Position numbers and translations under genes: made by a program. 64,000 nt of DNA from an uncultured Bacteroidota bacterium (lineage in GTDB: Bacteria > Bacteroidota > Bacteroidia > B-17B0 > Aurantibacillaceae), in contig CALMVZ010000012.1 in the NCBI GenBank assembly GCA_937873155.1, positions 310,001 through 374,000 on the forward strand, in the 5' to 3' direction. Shown here piece by piece: positions 55,649-64,000 of this stretch. How positions within the stretch are numbered: the first letter of the stretch is position 1; the number at the start of each line of letters is the position of its first letter. The notes beneath the pieces are model-generated. The model made no database searches. It was not told where the DNA came from and saw nothing but the letters and a program-made list of their open reading frames with translations.

Positions 55649-55913
55649 TCCTTCCAACAGTCAGGGCTAAAGCCCACAAATATCTATTCTTTGTTAACCC
55701 CGGACTAAAGTCCGGGGTTATTAGTATATCAGCTTATAAACAGCTTCGTTCTGCTTTTATTAGTACCCCATTCTAAAACCCAAACTAAAGTCTGGGGTTA
55801 ATAATGATACTCACTCCTCGTAAGCGACACATTAACCTCGGACTTTAGTTTAGGGTTTTATTCGTAAACGACACATTAACCTCGGACTTTGGTTTAAGGT
55901 TTTCTTTTCGGAA

Positions 55914-56217
55914 GCGGCACATTAACCTCGACTTTGGTTTAGGGTTTTCTATTCGGAAGCGACATTAACCTCGGACTTTAGTCCGAGGATTACAGCTTAT
56001 TAACATTATGGGCTTTAGCCCTGATAGAATTTTCCATAAAGCTACGATCGTAGCAATCAATCGCATTACAGACGGATTGAGAAAACAACCGCTTCTTTTC
56101 GTAAGCGACACATTAACCTCGGACTTTGGTTTAGGGTTTTCTATTCGGAAGCGACATTAACCTCGGACTTTAGTCCGAGGATTACAGCTTATTAACATTA
56201 TGGGCTTTAGCCCTGAC
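55914..56217. repeat. Direct duplication of about 110 bp within the REP array
   Basis: 55914-56024 and 56104-56217 are nearly identical, from GACACATTAACCTC(G)GACTTTGG through the CCTCGGAC hairpin to TGGGCTTTAGCCCTGA. Differences are a few substitutions and one missing G in the first copy. 80 bp of unrelated sequence separate them. Confidence 0.85.
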
Positions 56218-56271
56218 GGATTTTTTCGCAAATGCTACAAATCATAGCAACTAATCGGATTAAAAGCAGAA

Positions 56272-56279
56272 TATCTTTG
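56272..56279 (+). promoter_or_regulatory. Promoter -7 element before the transposase
   Basis: TATCTTTG, 23 bp before the ATG; no -33 TTTG at the usual spacing, so probably weak. Confidence 0.45.
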
Positions 56280-56302
56280 TATTTAATCAACAAAAAATAA
56301 AG

Positions 56303-56770
56303 ATGGCTCACACAAAAGTTTGGATACATGCAGTTTGGGGAACTAAAAACCGATATCCCTTTCTCACAAAAGATCTAAGGTCAAAAGTAATCTCACATAT
56401 TTTACAAAATGCAAAAGCTAAAGAAGTTTATATAAAAAACATGAATGGACATTCTGATCATTTACATTGTTTGTTTGCTTTAAATGCAGATTCAAGTATC
56501 TCCAAAACATTGCAACTCTTAAAAGGAGAATCTGCTTTTTGGATCAACAAAGAGAAACTGACCATAACAAAATTTGAATGGGCAAATGAATATTATGCAA
56601 GTTCAGTAAGTGAATCTCAATTGCAGTATGTTATGAATTATATAGATGATCAGGAAGAACATCACAAGAAAACTACTTTCCAACAAGAGTATGAGAACTT
56701 TATCCAACAGTCAAACTGTAATGTCAGGGCTAAAGCCCATGTGCCATCCACTTCTTCAACCCCGAACTAA
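56303..56770 (+). CDS. IS200/RAYT-like Y1 transposase (HUH)
   Basis: 155 aa. HUH motif in GHSDHLHCLFAL (His-Leu-His), catalytic Tyr in MNYIDDQEEHHKK, and the start HTKVWIHAVWGTKNRYPFL typical of the short Bacteroidota Y1 family. No TnpB partner. It is embedded between palindromic repeats with family B ends, the arrangement of REP-associated tyrosine transposases (RAYTs), which act on REP hairpins. The last 16 or so codons are the REP sequence itself: TCAGGGCTAAAGCCCA at 56724-56739 is in frame and the stop falls in the AACCCCGAACT palindrome. The native C-terminus was therefore probably changed by REP insertion or the gene co-evolved with it. Confidence 0.9.
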   Translation: MAHTKVWIHAVWGTKNRYPFLTKDLRSKVISHILQNAKAKEVYIKNMNGHSDHLHCLFALNADSSISKTLQLLKGESAFWINKEKLTITKFEWANEYYASSVSESQLQYVMNYIDDQEEHHKKTTFQQEYENFIQQSNCNVRAKAHVPSTSSTPN

Positions 56771-56978
56771 AGTTCGGGGTTATAAAATACTAAGCATCGT
56801 AATTCGTATGTGTATAAGTCGCTAAGTACAGTAATCTATTAACCCCAGACTTTTGTCCTGAGTTATAAATATTAAGCGTCGTAATTCGTATGTATAAGTT
56901 ACTAAATACAATTATCCATTAACCCCAGACTTTAGTCTGGGGTTAAGTGAACTACTGATACATGGGCTTTAGCCCTGA
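56724..56978. repeat. REP-like palindromes downstream of the transposase (family B)
   Basis: Begins with TCAGGGCTAAAGCCCA (56724-56739, within the transposase ORF), then AACCCCGAAC-TAAA-GTTCGGGGTT, a decayed AACCCCAGACTTTTGTCCTGAG unit, AACCCCAGAC-TTTA-GTCTGGGGTT (near 56923-56944) and the inverted end TGGGCTTTAGCCCTGA (56963-56978). Two copies of GTCGTAATTCGTATG lie between. The outer ends at 55661 and 56978 are exact inverted repeats that bracket the whole 1.3-kb element. Confidence 0.88.
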
Positions 56979-57028: not shown

Positions 57029-57059
57029 TTGACAAAAAGATGATTTTTTAGTACATTTA
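57029..57059 (+). promoter_or_regulatory. Promoter of the UbiA operon
   Basis: TTG (57029-57031), 20 bases, TACATTTA (57052-57059). It lies 21 bp before the ATG of the first gene. It is 50 bp from the end of the REP element. Confidence 0.6.
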
Positions 57060-57080
57060 TTCAAACTAAAATCTCTTCGT

Positions 57081-58001
57081 ATGAAAAAACTTTTACTCTC
57101 AGTCATTTCCATCTTTATTTTCAATGTAAGTCAATCACAAATAATGATAGATACATTGGCAATGCAAAATTTTGATACCCTGAACTTATACAATCCTAAT
57201 TGGTCGTTTACCGGCCCTGTAGTTTATAATACAATGGGGGTGAGCCCTGCTGCCGCCTCACCTTCCAATAGCCCTACAGGCATTGGCAATTCCAATTCGT
57301 GGGAAAGCACAACACAAAGCACAGGTATCATACTTACCTTTTCTACTATAAATATTCCCGCGGGATACGATAGTATCCGCGCACGGTTCAGTTTAGCAGC
57401 TATGAACCTGATAAGTACAGGTGGTGGTCCTGATAATTTAGATTACGTTTTAACAGAAGTTAGTTTTAATGGTGGCCCTTTTTACAACAGATTACGTATT
57501 CGTGGTGCAGTTGCAAATAATAGCTGGTGGCCTTATGCAGCAACAGGTAAAGCTAAAGTATATTATCAGCCACAAACTGAACAGACATTTGCACCAACTA
57601 ACAGCGGTTTACAAACTACAGAAGGTTATAGCTATTGCGAAATTGTTTTTCCGGGAAGTGTAAACTCTGTAAGTATACGAATGACCGGACGTTCAAGTTC
57701 TTCAACAGATACCTGGTTAGTGGATAATGTTTTGTTGACAGGAGAGAAATTAGCAACCGGAATTAATTCAATCACAAAAAACAATTCAGTTAAGATCTAT
57801 CCTAACCCTGCTAATGATATTGTACATATCAGACGCGGTAATTCAAATGCCGGTTCTTTAACAATGGTAAATGCTTTGGGTCAAACTGTAATCACGAAAG
57901 AACTGACCAAAGAAGCAGAAAGTGTGAATATTTCTGAATTACCATCCGGAATTTATTTTATGAACGTTGATGGTTCTGTAAAGAAGATAATTAAACAATA
58001 G
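57081..58001 (+). CDS. Secreted protein with T9SS type A sorting domain (operon gene 1)
   Basis: 306 aa. Signal peptide MKKLLLSVISIFIFNVSQSQ; a beta-sandwich-like region (NWSFTGPVVYNT, RFSLAAMNLISTGGGPDN, SVSIRMTGRSSSSTDTWLVD) like jelly-roll carbohydrate-binding or discoidin-type folds; and a T9SS sorting domain (VKIYPNPANDIVHIRRG ... GIYFMNVDGSVKKIIKQ). No enzyme motif. It is 7 bp upstream of the UbiA gene, so it is the lead gene of the operon or simply co-transcribed by chance. Confidence 0.85.
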   Translation: MKKLLLSVISIFIFNVSQSQIMIDTLAMQNFDTLNLYNPNWSFTGPVVYNTMGVSPAAASPSNSPTGIGNSNSWESTTQSTGIILTFSTINIPAGYDSIRARFSLAAMNLISTGGGPDNLDYVLTEVSFNGGPFYNRLRIRGAVANNSWWPYAATGKAKVYYQPQTEQTFAPTNSGLQTTEGYSYCEIVFPGSVNSVSIRMTGRSSSSTDTWLVDNVLLTGEKLATGINSITKNNSVKIYPNPANDIVHIRRGNSNAGSLTMVNALGQTVITKELTKEAESVNISELPSGIYFMNVDGSVKKIIKQ

Positions 58002-58008
58002 TTCTTTT

Positions 58009-58926
58009 ATGACCGTTTTCAACGGTATTGCGATCCTGATCTTAACAATAATCCCGCCATTAGTACTTTGGCGGGTTAATTTTAATTTATTAAAAGAGAT
58101 CCTGAAAGATCTCCGTCCTCTCCGCATTCTTCATTTTTTTATTCTCACACTTATTGGCGCTCATGTTTATTATCATTCCGCAACCGATTGTAGTGATGAT
58201 CTGAACAACGATTACATTCAACAACTGCTTTCTTTTTGGGCCGCTTTGGTTTACGCAGCAGTTTTTGCAATCGTCTCTAATAACATGGAAGATATTGGGG
58301 CTGACAAGATCTCAAATCCATCGAGACCACTGGTAAAAGGCACTGTCGATCCGAGGTCTTATCTTAAAGCTGGGATCAGTTGTCAATTCATTGCCCTGGC
58401 CATTTCTTCATTCAGTGGTTGGTCCGTTCTATTCGGGATCATCGGAATTTCGATGGGATATTATTTGTATTCATGTCCCCCGCTCCGTTTGAAACGCGTT
58501 CCATTCCTTGCAAAATTTATGATCGGGCTCAATTCTTTCATTGCAGCCTTAACAGGGTTTACGATCATTGGCGGTGACCCATCAGAATTTCCAATCACCT
58601 GGGCTGTTTTTATTCTTGTTCCACTTTCATTAGCTGCCAATTTTATTGACCTGAAAGATACAGAAGGTGACCGCGCAACAGGTGTACAAACTTTACCTGT
58701 TATTTTCGGTGAGAAAAAAGCTAAGATCATCATTGCTGTTTTTACTGTGATCACCTATGGAATGGCCGGTGTGCTTATTAATAAATTATGGCTGTATCCT
58801 GCCGGTGCGATTGGCTTAGCATTTCATCTTTGGTTCTTATTCCGTGAACCTTTCAAAGAAAAACCGGTATTTTTGATATACATAACTTCTTTACTGGTAT
58901 TAGCCGTATTACTGCTGTTCCCATGA
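58009..58926 (+). CDS. UbiA-superfamily membrane prenyltransferase (operon gene 2)
   Basis: 305 aa, eight to nine membrane helices in the inner membrane. First Asp-rich motif NNMEDIGADKISNPSRPLVK (about 82-101) and second DLKDTEGDRATGVQTLP (about 205-221) are intact, with the arginine-containing SRPL. UbiA enzymes attach a polyprenyl chain to an aromatic or other acceptor. It is not the menA or ubiA gene in context; the neighbours (terpene-cyclase-fold protein, AttH-like lipoprotein, second UbiA-like protein) suggest a special isoprenoid. Its end overlaps the next start by 4 bp. Confidence 0.9.
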   Translation: MTVFNGIAILILTIIPPLVLWRVNFNLLKEILKDLRPLRILHFFILTLIGAHVYYHSATDCSDDLNNDYIQQLLSFWAALVYAAVFAIVSNNMEDIGADKISNPSRPLVKGTVDPRSYLKAGISCQFIALAISSFSGWSVLFGIIGISMGYYLYSCPPLRLKRVPFLAKFMIGLNSFIAALTGFTIIGGDPSEFPITWAVFILVPLSLAANFIDLKDTEGDRATGVQTLPVIFGEKKAKIIIAVFTVITYGMAGVLINKLWLYPAGAIGLAFHLWFLFREPFKEKPVFLIYITSLLVLAVLLLFP

Positions 58927-59876
58927 GATCCAAACTCACATATCTTTTGATTTTGATTACTGTGGTTGGTTTTTCGCAAACTTCCTCAATAAATGATGCG
59001 ATAAAACGCGGAAGGGATTTCCTGAAACATATTCAACGAACTGACGGTGCCATAGCAGACACTTCAAAAACTTTATTCGAGACATGGGAAACGGTTTTAG
59101 CTGCAACCGCTTTGTATGAAACGCAAAAGGACACCAACGAAGTTACATTTCAAAAAGCAGTAAATTTTTTAAGGCGTAATGAGAATGCCGATGGACTTAT
59201 TTGTCACAACAGAAAATGTAAAGAAGCTTATTGTTTGGAAACTACTTCGCAGTATTTTTTGTTATTGATCAGGATCGGACTGAAAGAAAAAATAATCTCA
59301 AGATTAGAGATCATCAAAAAACTGCAAAAGCCAAGCGGCGAATGGGAAATTGGCAATCCGGATGTAAAAGAAATAAAAGATTTTCCTTCCGTTACAGCAT
59401 TTATGTTACAATTATTTCAGGAGGCCGGGATAAAACCGAAATATGAGAAAGAAACTTATAAATGGCTCATCAGTAAACAAAATAAAGATGGAAGTTTTGG
59501 AAGCGCATGGGAATATTATGATTGTCCGCTTTATGCACTTTGGCCTTTTATGAATATCAGTGCAAAAGAATTGATCGCTTCAAAAAAGAAAGCAGAGAAT
59601 TTTATCCTGAAGAATAAACAAATGAACGGGATCTGGAATTTTAAAACTCAGAAAGGCCCTTCCATGGAATTACAAACCGCATTAGTTCTTGCAGCAATGC
59701 AAAATAATTTAAACGACCGTAAGACGAGTACGCTTTTTCTCCTCAAATACCAACAAATGAATGGAAGCTGGAACGGGGGTCTTTTCCCGGTAAAAAGTGA
59801 TTCGTATATCAAACATGAATACGTTTTTGCAACTTCATTAAGTTTAATAGCTTTAGCATTGCAGCCCGGAAAATGA
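58923..59876 (+). CDS. Secreted terpene-cyclase/prenyltransferase-fold (alpha-toroid) protein (operon gene 3)
   Basis: 317 aa. Signal peptide MRSKLTYLLILITVVGFSQ, so it works in the periplasm. Toroid repeats of the PFTB/squalene-cyclase type: LKHIQRTDGAIADT, ILKNKQMNGIWNF, LKYQQMNGSWNGG and ISKQNKDGSFGS. No DxDD motif of class II cyclases. A Cys/His cluster ICHNRKCKEAYC (94-104) and an Asp200-Cys201 pair with His298 could bind metal or shape the active site. The fold is that of enzymes that bind long isoprenoids, though other secreted toroids (complement-like) exist. It overlaps the genes on both sides by 4 bp. Confidence 0.85.
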   Translation: MRSKLTYLLILITVVGFSQTSSINDAIKRGRDFLKHIQRTDGAIADTSKTLFETWETVLAATALYETQKDTNEVTFQKAVNFLRRNENADGLICHNRKCKEAYCLETTSQYFLLLIRIGLKEKIISRLEIIKKLQKPSGEWEIGNPDVKEIKDFPSVTAFMLQLFQEAGIKPKYEKETYKWLISKQNKDGSFGSAWEYYDCPLYALWPFMNISAKELIASKKKAENFILKNKQMNGIWNFKTQKGPSMELQTALVLAAMQNNLNDRKTSTLFLLKYQQMNGSWNGGLFPVKSDSYIKHEYVFATSLSLIALALQPGK

Positions 59877-60832
59877 AAAACATTGCGGGCATACTACTCA
59901 TTATCCTTGCAAGTTCATGTGCGACGCGACAAGCACTTCCCTCTGAAGTTGTTCTCTTCCCGAAACCCGGAGAGAATAAGATCTGGCTGATCAATACCAT
60001 TGCAGAGGACTACCATTTTTGTTCGCTGATAAGTTTTGAAACTGCATCAACAAGAGAATACCTGACTTCTTTCGCGTGTCTTTGGTCAAAAAAAGATTCT
60101 GCTTATTATTACGGGATCAGAAGTACGAATAAAGCGACAGTTGCTCAACTAACAGAATTTCCGGTCTATCTTGATCTTTTAAAATCTGATTCGAGCTCTA
60201 ACGAATGTAAATTAGTTGTATCGAGGAGAAAAACAGTATGGAAAGGTGAATTGGGAGGAAAGGCTTCCAAAGTAAAAGTAAAATACAAAACACGATCAGA
60301 TTTTCATCTTTTCCAAGTATCAGACCAACCACAGGTTTGGACAACAGCTCCTCTTAATTCAATTTTAAGCCCGGTCGGTAAAGTGAAAACTGAAACAACT
60401 TCCATACTCTGCATGAGCGTTTTTAAAACCGACAAAGATCTGATCGCGTTAGCAGCTAACGGAACATTAGTCTGGATGGACCTGGTCCTGGATGACGGAA
60501 CACAATTTAATGGATTATTCAAAGTAAATGAAAAAACAACTTCTTTGATCGGCTATAGTATTAAAGATCCATCGCTTCAATATACCACAGATAAACGATT
60601 AGCCATAGAAGCGAAATATCACTGGAAAAGTACGGCAAGCGGCAAATCCTATCCTTTAACCTATACGATACAATTTCCTAATACTAATAAAACAATTCAT
60701 ATCCGTCCGCTTCTTGAAAACCAGGAGATCAATGCTAAAAAAAGTTCATTCTGGATGGGAGCTATAGAAGCTATTGATCCGGAAAAAAAAGTAAAGACCG
60801 GCAGCGGAAATATGTATATCTTCAATAAATAA
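59873..60832 (+). CDS. Lipoprotein with AttH/CrtC-like C-terminal half (operon gene 4)
   Basis: 319 aa. Lipoprotein signal with LIILASSCATRQ, so membrane-anchored on the periplasmic side. The C-terminal half has a lipocalin-like pattern reminiscent of the AttH/CrtC (carotenoid 1,2-hydratase) group: YHWKSTASGKSYPLTYTIQF, HIRPLLENQEINAKKSSFW and MGAIEAIDPEKKVKTGSGNM. The N-terminal half (about 25-150) also looks like a beta-barrel (YHFCSLISFETAS, RKTVWKGELGGKASKV). The assignment is by pattern, not by a full alignment. If right it could bind or hydrate an isoprenoid made by the UbiA and toroid proteins. It overlaps gene 3 by 4 bp. Confidence 0.7.
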   Translation: MKNIAGILLIILASSCATRQALPSEVVLFPKPGENKIWLINTIAEDYHFCSLISFETASTREYLTSFACLWSKKDSAYYYGIRSTNKATVAQLTEFPVYLDLLKSDSSSNECKLVVSRRKTVWKGELGGKASKVKVKYKTRSDFHLFQVSDQPQVWTTAPLNSILSPVGKVKTETTSILCMSVFKTDKDLIALAANGTLVWMDLVLDDGTQFNGLFKVNEKTTSLIGYSIKDPSLQYTTDKRLAIEAKYHWKSTASGKSYPLTYTIQFPNTNKTIHIRPLLENQEINAKKSSFWMGAIEAIDPEKKVKTGSGNMYIFNK

Positions 60833-60833
60833 A

Positions 60834-62093
60834 TTGAATAAACTTCAGAACATATTTATTTCTATCGTTAATAAAATTGAAAACAACGATACACCTTTCC
60901 GCCGGTATATATTTTTATTCTTTGCTATTCTTGTTTTACGACTTGCATTAGAGTTCTTTTCGAGCGGGAGGCTCTTTACTTTTTTTGACATCATGCACAT
61001 CGGGATGTGGTTTGTCTTTATTGTACTGACCTTTTTATTGCAGCTGCATTTATTCTCAGGCGAAGATCTTATCAAAGTAGCTAAATTGGTTATTACATGT
61101 TTTACTATAGCACTCACCGCCCCTATCATTGATATTCTGGTTTCATGGGGACAAAGTGCTAAAATGAATTATCTGAGCATAAATTCTGTGGAAGATATCT
61201 TCTGGTCGTACATAACAATTGGCGGATCAAGTTTAACACGGGGTGCTACTTTAGGAATAAGGATAGAGATTATTTTGTTAGTGATCGCCTGTTTCAATTA
61301 TGTATACACAAAACGGAGCAGTATAACACGGGGAGTCATTGCTTCAATTTGTATTTATACCATTTTGTTTTTATCAGGCGCTATTCCTTATTTCCTTGGC
61401 AAGATCGTTAACTATTTTCAATTGCAGTATGGTCCCGATGATCAATCTACCTTACTTTTATTACTCACGTTAAACCTGTTCCTTCTCTTTGTTTTTGCCT
61501 GGAGAAAAAACGGTTCGCGTATTAGGGAATTATTAAAACAAGCCCCATGGGGAAGCATTCTTAACATTACACCATTATTTTTTGCCGGAGCGATACTTGC
61601 CCTGAAAAATTATCCCGGTAACTGGAAATTAGATCCCACTACCCTCTTTTGGTTTCCTTTGCTATTTGCTCTCTCTTTTTGTTTCGTAGTTCTTTATTCA
61701 CTCAAAAAAACTAAAACAGGTACAAATTTTAATTGGGAGAACGGCATATTATTTCTTTTGATACTCATCAGCTCTCTTATCTCAACACGTACTTTTTTTT
61801 CTGCAATGTTGATCTGGGGACTTCTTTTTTTATTGTATGAACCGCCTTTATCACTTGTTAAAATTCCATTTCTCAACAACTTATTAAAAGCTATGACCGC
61901 ACTTGCCATTGCGTTTTTAGGCTTTACAACTTTCGGAGCGCCAATGATTGGTTTTCCTTCAAAATGGATTCTGGGCGTTCTAATAATAGGTTTCATTGAG
62001 GGAACCGTTATCAATTATGTTAAAACCGAAAAGCGTCAGTGGTTTGCGCTTGCATTTCTTCCTATAAGCATACTTTTACTCTTCCTTATTTAA
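60834..62093 (+). CDS. Polytopic membrane protein with UbiA-like C-terminal half lacking Asp motifs (operon gene 5)
   Basis: 419 aa from a TTG one base after the previous stop; about eleven membrane helices. The C-terminal part aligns by eye with the UbiA protein of gene 2: YEPPLSLVKIPFLNNLLKAM versus SCPPLRLKRVPFLAKFMIGL, then FLGFTTFGAPMIGFPSKW versus LTGFTIIGGDPSEFPITW. Where gene 2 has FIDLKDTEGDRATG, this protein has FIEGTVINYVKTEKRQ, and the first Asp motif is also missing. It is thus an apparently inactive UbiA homologue. About 200 N-terminal residues form another membrane domain (SLTRGATLGIRIEIILLV) that I do not recognise. Confidence 0.75.
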   Translation: MNKLQNIFISIVNKIENNDTPFRRYIFLFFAILVLRLALEFFSSGRLFTFFDIMHIGMWFVFIVLTFLLQLHLFSGEDLIKVAKLVITCFTIALTAPIIDILVSWGQSAKMNYLSINSVEDIFWSYITIGGSSLTRGATLGIRIEIILLVIACFNYVYTKRSSITRGVIASICIYTILFLSGAIPYFLGKIVNYFQLQYGPDDQSTLLLLLTLNLFLLFVFAWRKNGSRIRELLKQAPWGSILNITPLFFAGAILALKNYPGNWKLDPTTLFWFPLLFALSFCFVVLYSLKKTKTGTNFNWENGILFLLILISSLISTRTFFSAMLIWGLLFLLYEPPLSLVKIPFLNNLLKAMTALAIAFLGFTTFGAPMIGFPSKWILGVLIIGFIEGTVINYVKTEKRQWFALAFLPISILLLFLI

Positions 62094-62126
62094 ATCTTTA
62101 TTTTCATCAAAATAAGAAGAAGCTTG

Positions 62127-62157
62127 TTTGGCTCCTTCCCAAAATTCCGTATCTTCA
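62127..62157 (+). promoter_or_regulatory. Promoter that fixes the start of the next T9SS gene
   Basis: TTTG (62127-62130), 19 bases, TATCTTCA (62150-62157): a very good match. It places the start at ATG 62169, not at 62124. Confidence 0.8.
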
Positions 62158-62168
62158 TACAGCTAAAA

Positions 62169-63452
62169 ATGTTTTTCAAAAAACATACCCAGTTATTCTT
62201 CACAGCAATTACTCTTATTTGTTGTGTTACTTCGTATTCCCAGGTTACAACATGGTCGGTGAATTTTAATAATGGCTGTGCTGCTAACTGTCTTGCCACA
62301 ACCTATGGTGGATGGACAGTTGTGAATAATGATGGTGGCATAAGCGGAGCGGCCTCAAACAATTGGTTCGTAAGTTGTGCTGAAGAAGGCATTACCCCTC
62401 CCGGTTGCGGAAGCACTTGCATCAACGATCAGTGTTTGCACCTTGGCGCCAATGCTGGTGCCGGCGGAGATATGGGTGCAAGTTTTAATGAAACAGGTGC
62501 AACAAATGCTACTTATAAAATGGCTGTTTCTCCTGTTATCAATTTAACCGGTGTTACTACAAATACATTACAATTCGATTATATCGCTTTTGGAAGCGCA
62601 GGTTGTTCCGACGATAGAGCGCAATTGCGTTTGAGTGCAGATGGCGGTGCAACCTGGCCTGTTGGCTGGCAATATTGTTTAACCAGTGTTTGCTGCGGGG
62701 CGTGTAATGGTTATAGCCAGGGACAATGGACATTGTACTCTATCGTGTTACCTGCAGCTTTTGATAACAATCCTAATGTAAGAGTTGGTTTTCACTGGAG
62801 AAATAATGGTAATGGTGCGGGCACAGATCCTTCAGTTGCAATTGACGATGCAAGGATACTCTCACCTGTGATCTTACCTCTTACATTATTAGAATTTAAG
62901 TCAGGGAAAGAAAATGGGAACACGAATGTGAAATGGGTAACCGCTTCTGAAAAGAATTTCTCACACTTCGAATTACAAAAATCTACTGACGCAAAAACAT
63001 TTAATTCCATTGGAACTATTAATGGAAAAGGCCAGGGCAACGGAAAGTCACATTATAATTTTGTTGACAAAGAAAAGAATACGGAGACCGTTTACTACCG
63101 CTTAAAAATGATCGATAAAGATCAAACCTTTTCCATGTCGAAGATCATTAGCGAAGGTGCAGGTAAAGAGGGTGCCGGAGGTATTTCAATAACATCTCAA
63201 GCCGTGAATAACGACCAGTTGAATATTTATATGAATTCAGGTTCTGTTACCCAGGTCATTATAGAAATATATGATACAAGGGGCAAACAAATGCTTCAGG
63301 TGGAAGACCGGAAATTATATCCCGGTGATAATACTGTAAGTGTGAACATTACCAATTTAGCACCTGCCGTTTACTTCCTGAAAGTGAGTCCCGTAGCTGA
63401 AGGTAAAGCCCGGCCCGGTTTTGTTGTACAAAAATTCGCCCTTACCAAATAA
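62169..63452 (+). CDS. Secreted Cys-rich protein with T9SS sorting domain
   Basis: 427 aa. Signal peptide MFFKKHTQLFFTAITLICC then VTSYSQ. An N-terminal jelly-roll-like domain with about 14 cysteines (FNNGCAANCLATTYGGW, PPGCGSTCINDQCLHLGANA, LTSVCCGACNGYSQGQW) and many Asp/Asn resembles MAM or carbohydrate-binding modules that use disulfides or calcium. A linker domain (LPLTLLEFKSGKENGNTNVK) leads to a C-terminal T9SS type domain (IYDTRGKQMLQVEDRKLYPG ... PAVYFLKVSPVAEG). The frame runs back to 62124, upstream of the promoter. It probably stands alone. Confidence 0.87.
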   Translation: MFFKKHTQLFFTAITLICCVTSYSQVTTWSVNFNNGCAANCLATTYGGWTVVNNDGGISGAASNNWFVSCAEEGITPPGCGSTCINDQCLHLGANAGAGGDMGASFNETGATNATYKMAVSPVINLTGVTTNTLQFDYIAFGSAGCSDDRAQLRLSADGGATWPVGWQYCLTSVCCGACNGYSQGQWTLYSIVLPAAFDNNPNVRVGFHWRNNGNGAGTDPSVAIDDARILSPVILPLTLLEFKSGKENGNTNVKWVTASEKNFSHFELQKSTDAKTFNSIGTINGKGQGNGKSHYNFVDKEKNTETVYYRLKMIDKDQTFSMSKIISEGAGKEGAGGISITSQAVNNDQLNIYMNSGSVTQVIIEIYDTRGKQMLQVEDRKLYPGDNTVSVNITNLAPAVYFLKVSPVAEGKARPGFVVQKFALTK

Positions 63453-63502: not shown

Positions 63503-64000
63503 TTGAAAAAAGGTCTGCTCATATTCTTATCGGTTTTATCGGTTCTTTCCGTTGCCCAGGTAGGCGGGCCAACCACTTACCGTTTTCTTGAGATCCCGAT
63601 GCCTGCAAGGGCTGCGGCTTTAGGAGGCAACAGCATGTGTATCTGGGGAGATGATATCAATCTTTATTATAGCAACCCTGCTCTTTTGCATAAAGGCTGC
63701 GTTAAACAAGTTGCATTAAATTACAACAATTACATTGCCGACATGAACTTCGGGAATGTAGCTTATGCCCATCATGTAGATAAAATAGGAACTTTCGCTG
63801 GCGGCATCCAATTCTTCGATTATGGAAAATTTGACAGACGTGATGAATATGATGTGAATGAAGGAACATTCCGTGCAGCTGATTATTCTTTGAACTTAAC
63901 TTTTGCGCGCCGTTTAAAAGATACAAGCTTCAGCTTTGGCGCTACTTTAAAAACTATCTATTCGCATTACGATGTTTACAGGTCTTTCGGGAACGCTGTT
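63503..64000 (+). CDS. porQ: Type IX secretion system protein PorQ (cut by window edge)
   Basis: 166 codons, starting at TTG 63503; a TAA stop immediately precedes it, so no longer start is possible. Signal peptide KKGLLIFLSVLSVLSVAQ; the family signature GGPTTYRFLEIPMPARAAAL, then WGDDINLYYSNPALLHKG and the barrel strands FGNVAYAHHVDKIGTFAGGI. PorQ belongs to the PorV/FadL-like outer-membrane barrels of the T9SS attachment complex. It is next to a T9SS cargo protein and, with the gldN at 39.6 kb, marks the window as T9SS-positive. The C-terminus lies outside. Confidence 0.88.
   Translation, partial: MKKGLLIFLSVLSVLSVAQVGGPTTYRFLEIPMPARAAALGGNSMCIWGDDINLYYSNPALLHKGCVKQVALNYNNYIADMNFGNVAYAHHVDKIGTFAGGIQFFDYGKFDRRDEYDVNEGTFRAADYSLNLTFARRLKDTSFSFGATLKTIYSHYDVYRSFGNAV

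Follow-up and report, generated by a model that had tools for sequence, protein, structure and literature searches.

A rare gene cassette of an uncultured Bacteroidota bacterium, with a UbiA prenyltransferase, a terpene cyclase-type toroid and an AttH-fold lipoprotein, that probably serves one prenyl-lipid route in the cell envelope

The prenylation step of the merosterolic acid pathway is of the UbiA type, and the abbreviation used for the MstE substrate stands for geranylgeranylated dihydroxybenzoate. MstE is a monodomain class II cyclase of merosterol biosynthesis (PMC9401909, PMC12365925), Pyr4-like transmembrane terpene cyclases are compact membrane cyclases that work alongside a UbiA-like enzyme in meroterpenoid clusters (PMC13307353), CrtC has D268 as its postulated proton donor with W110, W283 and W285 as key residues (PMC12402844), and kievitone hydratase is secreted, shows no visible prosthetic group and works on the prenyl moiety of prenylated flavonoids (PMC5805349). 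We analysed a locus of an uncultured Bacteroidota bacterium (genome of 4.85 Mb in 39 contigs) that lies in a stretch of 64,000 nucleotides, referred to here as the window (G000:C12:310001-374000). At this locus a UbiA-superfamily prenyltransferase (gene 2), a toroid of the class II terpene cyclase type (gene 3), a lipoprotein of the AttH fold (gene 4), a membrane protein with a motif-less UbiA half (gene 5) and a protein with a sorting domain for the type IX secretion system (T9SS; gene 6) follow one another on one strand. We favour the reading, at a probability of roughly 0.6, that they form a five-gene envelope cassette serving one shared prenyl-lipid route, the product of which is probably an isoprenoid lipid made and handled across the cell envelope.

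A preliminary description of this DNA had grouped genes 1-5 as an operon. Its gene calls and overlaps are confirmed, and all five open reading frames (ORFs) lie on the plus strand. Genes 2 and 3 overlap by 4 bp (58923-58926), as do genes 3 and 4 (59873-59876), and gene 5 begins with a TTG codon one base past the stop of gene 4. For gene 6 a TTG start was likewise used, which gives 442 residues, a later ATG being possible. The features are as follows.

57081-58001, + strand: gene 1, T9SS-sorted secreted protein, outside the conserved unit (Pfam T9SS tail; neighbourhood comparison)
58009-58926, + strand: gene 2, UbiA-superfamily prenyltransferase, 305 residues, with N91NMEDIGAD and D214LKDTEGD (Pfam UbiA; motifs)
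58923-59876, + strand: gene 3, single alpha-alpha toroid of the class II terpene cyclase type, predicted to be secreted, 317 residues (Pfam SQHop_cyclase_C; profile matches)
59873-60832, + strand: gene 4, lipoprotein with a predicted two-barrel AttH/kievitone-hydratase fold, 319 residues (PF17186; structural model)
60834-62093, + strand: gene 5, polytopic membrane protein, 419 residues, with an N-terminal domain (N-domain, about residues 1-215) and a predicted UbiA-fold half (about 231-419) (model; profile match)
62124-63452, + strand: gene 6, Cys-rich secreted protein with a T9SS C-terminal sorting domain, 442 residues from TTG (Por_Secre_tail; six of six neighbourhoods)

A family search and an order search, from which the extent of the unit was taken, covered 87 genomes each, and every one belongs to a single family. 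Of the 87, 6 contain gene 5 and the identical six contain the toroid (E 1e-10); among 100 relatives, gene 5 is found in five, the window's own genome counted. In all six genomes with gene 5, genes 2, 3, 4 and 5 keep their order and strand, and in G110 (locus L027) each of the three junctions is a 4-bp overlap, so that the co-occurrence on which the preliminary description had staked its grouping is borne out for genes 2-5. The cassette stands in four different surroundings (L013 and L014 alike, L015 and L016 alike, L027, and the window), and the trees of all five proteins repeat the pairs (L013, L014) and (L015, L016). A T9SS-type protein is encoded immediately downstream of gene 5 in six of six cases. 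Gene 6 itself matches Por_Secre_tail at E 3.5e-7 (30.9 bits, cut-off 27) and is thus assigned a T9SS sorting domain, and its profile scores 418-433 bits in exactly these six of the 87 genomes and at most 161 bits elsewhere. Its looser relatives reach E 1e-10 in 56 of the 87, i.e. in 50 genomes without the cassette. The N-terminal domain of this protein is 69-90% identical among the six (mean 76%), the highest value of the five members (others 31-55%). Because of the constant order, the co-occurrence and the close T9SS match in the same six genomes, the conserved unit is the UbiA enzyme, the toroid, the lipoprotein, gene 5 and the T9SS protein; the last (62124-63452) belongs to the unit in all six genomes and was missing from the gene set first described. 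Gene 1, which that set had included, was rejected as a member, as it has no counterpart beside the other five copies and resembles genes near them solely through its C-terminal T9SS-tail end. Upstream of gene 2 in all five of the other genomes lies an opposite-strand gene, with three kinds of neighbour.

The distribution of the cassette is patchy. It occurs in one of eight genomes of the window's genus, and in a sample of 395 genomes from the phylum gene 5 occurs once, in the window's own genome. Among the same-family genomes in a sample of 150 relatives, Lipocalin_9, the Pfam family of gene 4, is limited to five cassette genomes, and the sixth, whose presence in that sample is not evident, has a lipoprotein that also matches this family. 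In a search of plasmids, neither gene 5 nor the toroid was matched.

The preliminary description had assigned both UbiA Asp motifs to one protein, and this is gene 2. It matches Pfam UbiA (PF01040) at E 3.9e-32 (111.9 bits, cut-off 34.2), the family is matched by six of six orthologues, and the motifs N-N-x2-D-x3-D and D-x2-D-x3-D are present in all six. Prenyltransferase activity of gene 2 is thus very likely. It is also the sole isoprenoid-type protein of the cassette with an unaltered catalytic site, genes 3, 4 and 5 being altered. Among the matches listed (25 of 33 for gene 2), none of genes 2-5 reaches an NCBIfam cut-off.

Gene 5 has no Pfam match. Its C-terminal half is related to the gene 2 family profile by hhalign (E 6e-6, probability 85), and in an AlphaFold model (mean predicted local distance difference test score, pLDDT, of 69) residues 232-419 superpose on archaeal UbiA 4tq6 with Z 13.8 and a root-mean-square deviation (rmsd) of 4.8 over 177 aligned residues. 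The top five rows of the structural matches (VIA) are all UbiA, and prenyl synthases come next, beginning at Z 9.0; there may also be structural relatives in families that the VIA list lacks. The UbiA-like nature proposed earlier for this half is therefore supported by the model, and the proposed loss of both Asp motifs by the sequences, as none of the six gene 5 orthologues carries either. The protein has 419 residues in the window, 400 in G110 (L027:9189-10391) and 477-479 in the other four as delimited, and it may be that the UbiA half is shrinking as well as losing its motifs. The N-domain was described at the outset as a large unknown membrane domain, which is true of Pfam, where the best match among 13 scanned members (E 0.025) stays below the cut-off, nor was a sequence relative found in the PDB. 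Among 395 genomes of the window's phylum, three match it at E 0.01, the only clear one being the window's own copy and the others partial (20.6 and 18.5 bits). The domain does, however, form a shared family, since in another phylum it is fused to an intact UbiA.

These fusions came to light when a gene 2 search of genome contigs led to one locus, L019, in a Moraniibacteriota genome. The L019 protein has 520 residues, of which the N-terminal part aligns with gene 5 and the C-terminal part is an intact UbiA. In the phylum of this genome, Patescibacteria, fusion proteins occur in 7 of 286 genomes (the query's own included), and both Asp motifs are present in all seven, the ND pair of the first motif corresponding to NN in gene 2. 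From near its N-terminus onwards, gene 5 can be aligned with each of the six fusions discovered in this way, with identities of 23-33% and locus-level E values between 4e-11 and 2e-25. The residues R30, H51, P93, D96, Y110, G137, Y152 and P181 (L077 numbering) are invariant in 13 N-domain sequences, with E34, R139 and K156 nearly so. With the fusions trimmed to their last 300 residues and gene 5 taken from residue 219 on, the best BLAST scores are 111-120 bits from gene 2 to the fusion UbiA part and 100-128 bits from the fusions to gene 2, as against at most 49 bits between gene 2 and the five further UbiA genes that the window's genome carries. A polyprenyl synthetase gene adjoins the fusion gene in three of the six newly read loci (L077, L078 and L081). 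Because the N-domain is joined in Patescibacteria to an intact UbiA of the gene 2 kind, genes 2 and 5 give the impression of a single machine in two halves, and the simplest account would be that they descend from, or correspond to, one N-domain-UbiA protein. On a one-ancestor account, gene 2 would have retained the catalytic half and gene 5 the N-domain with a motif-less UbiA half, and the two probably act together in the inner membrane. The toroid was not matched in G515, the sole fusion genome searched, in a search that had no positive control.

The neighbourhood of the fusion gene is conserved among L077-L081, whose genomes are small (0.9-1.4 Mb). The fusion gene lies near an rRNA dimethylase-type gene, as judged by eye except for the dimethylase gene L077:4393-5265; a UvrD-like helicase gene is near the fusion in four of these five loci, again by eye, and polyprenyl synthetase in three of the five. 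A separate ORF of 571 residues in L083 (G555:C22, 4727-6442) is UbiA-like in its second half (E 0.002 with gene 2) and phytoene-synthase-type in its first half by eye, with a desaturase-like ORF adjoining it.

Gene 3 matches Pfam SQHop_cyclase_C above the cut-off (E 8.6e-11), the match is found in six of six orthologues, and a profile of the six toroids aligns with squalene-hopene cyclase at E 3e-19 and, weakly, with MstE at 1e-3, which points to a squalene-cyclase-type alpha-alpha toroid. Of the secreted terpene-cyclase-fold protein proposed at first, the fold is thus upheld and an unqualified cyclase activity is not, because C-x-E-T occupies the position of D-x-D-D in 12 of 16 alignment settings. 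In 13 of the 16, E106 lies opposite the middle Asp of D-x-D-D; a reading by eye that had placed E106 opposite the third Asp, and so held the protonating acid to be lost, was rejected on this result. The comparators were five ORFs with D-x-D-D out of seven extracted from 12 toroid matches outside the window's own genome (11 genomes), five of the seven carrying the motif and five being aligned, and the mapping uses MAFFT because hhalign against class II cyclases covered the second half only. At E 1e-6 the toroid is matched in 12 of 395 phylum genomes, the 11 others scoring at most 55.5 bits and covering only profile positions from 165 on. Invariant in all six toroids are W55-E-T, C94-H-N-x-K-C99, Y103-C-x-E106-T, N145-P-D-V and W196-E-Y-Y. 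In view of the E106 mapping and of these many invariant polar residues, the toroid acid may be kept as Glu with the canonical cyclase motif absent, and the predicted active-site region is strongly constrained. That the toroid catalyses a cyclisation is somewhat doubtful, though far from fanciful. The toroid N-termini are signal-peptide-like by eye and end in (A/S)Q with an invariant Gln.

Gene 4 starts with a lipobox-like LASSC (by eye) and matches Lipocalin_9 (PF17186) at E 5e-14, as is the case for six of six orthologues. Its model (mean pLDDT 74) superposes over residues 22-319 on AttH 2ich with Z 21.8 and an rmsd of 4.2 (275 aligned), and further matches are kievitone hydratase 7a0q (Z 19.5), CghA (16.7), fungal Diels-Alderases (about 16) and 25-phosphosteroid lyase (13.8). 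The modelled protein accordingly has the two-barrel AttH fold. An AttH/CrtC-like lipoprotein had been proposed, and the AttH likeness is borne out by the 2ich match whereas a CrtC-like hydratase activity is not, since the hydratase-type Asp is S/N/N/S/S/G in the six cassette lipoproteins (S182 in gene 4) in all 16 alignment settings. The first Trp of the WxW pair is Leu in six of six, the second is kept (W201), and an H-x-C pair (H48, C50) is invariant. With this Asp replaced throughout, a canonical hydratase function was rejected; the protein is unlikely to be a classical hydratase, because the catalytic-type Asp is replaced and the first WxW Trp is Leu. Eleven AttH-type ORFs were extracted as comparators, ten of them judged by eye to carry W[YI]D[RH]Q, the eleventh (L089) having Asn; the displayed alignment used five, and the 16-setting test used sets of four and ten, of which three and nine carry this motif. 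The equivalence to D268, for which no CrtC was aligned, was drawn from the D-15-W-2-W spacing, hand-counted in comparator L084 (16 in L085), together with PMC12402844. Gene 4 is the least conserved of the five members (mean identity 31%). Separately, the 333-residue L089 ORF (G817) is another AttH-fold-family protein of the same class, has Asn for the hydratase-type Asp and is without the WxW pair, which hints at a wider occurrence of proteins with this fold that are not hydratases. Acidic residues after the lipobox Cys are linked by rule to surface anchoring. The cassette lipoproteins have no acidic run at this place, which makes a periplasm-facing anchor more likely than a surface one for gene 4.

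Under the reading we favour, gene 2 would act in the inner membrane, where it couples a polyprenyl chain to a polar acceptor, and its membrane partner would be gene 5, the retained N-domain of which may modify, present or flip the product. The periplasmic toroid would admit the prenyl chain to its central cavity and either bind it or cyclise it through protonation by Glu106; the lipoprotein, its hydratase acid gone, would receive and carry, or finish, the product at the outer membrane, and the T9SS protein would hold or use it at the cell surface. The toroid and the lipoprotein are probably both outside the cytoplasm, and characterised relatives of their folds act on prenyl chains, steroids or polyenes. 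Any extracytoplasmic chemistry in this scheme would be cofactor-free, and prenyl chemistry outside the cell has a precedent in kievitone hydratase, which is secreted and acts on prenyl groups. We infer, as the preliminary description did and now on a better foundation, that the genes form one route for a modified isoprenoid. More tentatively, and doubtful as a whole, the cassette may be a chain of repurposed enzymes in which a prenyl-lipid built at the inner membrane is matured and passed via the periplasm and outer membrane to a surface protein, with a split prenyltransferase, a Glu- or Cys/His-based toroid, an AttH-fold carrier, and the N-domain as a new intramembrane isoprenoid-handling family common to the window's lineage and Patescibacteria.

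Several points weigh against this reading. Joint occurrence is no proof of a joint biochemical route. No gene that would supply an acceptor or a polyprenyl diphosphate is in the cassette, nor was one recognised by eye among the ORF starts beside the cassette in the six genomes, whole genomes not having been searched. The T9SS gene, at most a putative part of the transcript, begins at least 30 bases downstream of gene 5. The gene 5 model is of medium confidence (pLDDT 69), its Z of 13.8 is close to the ~13-14 that helical models reach without clear kinship, and Foldseek gives it no match at E < 0.001 (UbiA at E 0.45). When gene 5 is left out of the UbiA tree, two of the genome's further UbiA genes (L004 and L005) do not split off from gene 2 and the fusions; when it is included, all five other UbiA genes fall outside, with support 58/87 and on long branches. 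The toroid fold is generic, as its members also match, more weakly, TED (four of six), pectic acid lyase (three of six) and GH88 (one of six). Three of the 16 settings place E106 otherwise, D-x-D-D being absent there too, and the signal peptide of gene 3 was recognised by eye, the hydropathy scan having flagged gene 4 and not gene 3.

The strongest competitor is a transport relay without extracytoplasmic chemistry, in which gene 5, the toroid and the lipoprotein are former enzymes that pass the gene 2 product from the inner to the outer membrane. The disappearance of canonical catalytic residues from gene 5 and the lipoprotein and their change in the toroid fit such a relay, as does the succession of the proteins from inner membrane through periplasm and lipoprotein to the surface, yet the toroid invariants (W55, E56, T57, C94, H95, N96, K98, C99, E106, D147 and E197) are dense and active-site-like, and in the N-domain an R, an H and a D are invariant, and an E, an R and a K nearly so, with the fusions included. 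We regard a relay of this kind as possible, at well below even odds. Less likely is a meroterpenoid pathway moved outwards, with the UbiA enzyme prenylating an aromatic acid, the toroid cyclising in the manner of MstE, and the lipoprotein hydrating a remaining double bond of the prenyl chain after the fashion of CrtC or kievitone hydratase. This is consistent with MstE acting as a monodomain class II cyclase on a prenylated substrate (PMC9401909), with its relation to the toroid profile at 1e-3, with the hydratase fold of the lipoprotein and with an acidic residue, E106, that takes the place of the general acid under 13 of the 16 settings, but the hydratase-type Asp is Ser, Asn or Gly in six of six lipoproteins under all 16 settings, their first WxW Trp is Leu, D-x-D-D is missing from its place in the toroid, and the cassette holds no aromatic-precursor gene.

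It is quite improbable that the Cys-rich T9SS protein is itself the substrate, either receiving the prenyl-lipid or being matured by the toroid and the lipoprotein. UbiA enzymes act on small molecules, and although this protein is cassette-specific and the most conserved member (76% for its N-terminal domain against 31-55%), conservation alone marks no substrate, because 50 other genomes of the family have related domains and no cassette. That the genes are neighbours by chance, or only share their regulation and no pathway, would suit their rarity (gene 5 in 1 of 395 phylum genomes, its own), but this is largely refuted by a constant order in six of six genomes across four surroundings and by co-occurrence in the same 6 of 87.

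Around the cassette, a 33-nt palindromic repeat is present nine times just upstream (55689-56946; copies 61-100% alike), flanking an IS200-like transposase gene (56303-56770, Y1_Tnp E 1.7e-26) in a repetitive extragenic palindromic (REP)-type arrangement; the REP-associated transposase family itself is matched under its cut-off. A promoter-like TTGACA site coincides with position 57029, where the preliminary description had begun the locus. Promoter-like sites are not enriched over shuffled sequences (22 found, 23.6 +/- 5.3 expected), and the promoter and terminator scan was uninformative. Past the cassette the following gene encodes the T9SS protein PorQ (63503-64000, continuing in L017:9504-10604; NCBIfam E 6.7e-100, above the cut-off). 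In the other genomes with the cassette, the next gene looks unlike PorQ, to judge by its first residues, or lies on the opposite strand. The T9SS genes within the window and next to it would fit the phylum Bacteroidota.

As far as our searches go, the parts belong to known superfamilies, and the set, the split UbiA, the N-domain and a probably extracytoplasmic toroid with an altered motif are undescribed; no description of this combination of families was found in the literature, which is weak evidence, subscription papers having been outside the search. If the favoured reading is right, terpenoid chemistry or traffic would take place in the periplasm on dedicated proteins, widening the view of where isoprenoid lipids are finished. 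The cassette would then show, in nature, a prenyltransferase divided between an active and an inactive partner, to which a single protein corresponds in another phylum. It would add a membrane domain so far undescribed and marked by a clear signature of residues, as well as a class II cyclase fold that is probably secreted and whose acid motif has changed.

Among known systems, the UbiA superfamily (chlorophyll synthase, digeranylgeranylglyceryl phosphate synthase, AfUbiA) shares with gene 2 the Pfam family, both Asp motifs and PDB profile matches, and shares with the C-terminal half of gene 5 the fold, gene 5 differing by the absence of both motifs and by its extra N-terminal membrane domain. 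The N-domain-UbiA fusions are like gene 5 in domain order and in the signature residues of the N-domain, and their UbiA part scores with gene 2 above the genome's other UbiA genes; they differ in being a single protein with intact Asp motifs, as opposed to two proteins in the cassette. For the N-domain, Pyr4-like cyclases are a conceivable parallel, and a parallel only, their family being absent among the N-domain Pfam matches up to E 10. With the group of AttH, CrtC, kievitone hydratase, Diels-Alderases and 25-phosphosteroid lyase, gene 4 has in common the modelled two-barrel fold over residues 22-319, and departs from it by the replacement of the CrtC acid in six of six lipoproteins and the change of the first WxW Trp to Leu. 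The merosterolic acid pathway resembles the cassette in setting a single-domain class II cyclase fold beside a prenylation step, with the toroid profile related to MstE at E 1e-3; in the cassette the toroid is probably secreted and lacks D-x-D-D, and a lipoprotein, an N-domain joined to a pseudo-UbiA half and a T9SS protein are added.

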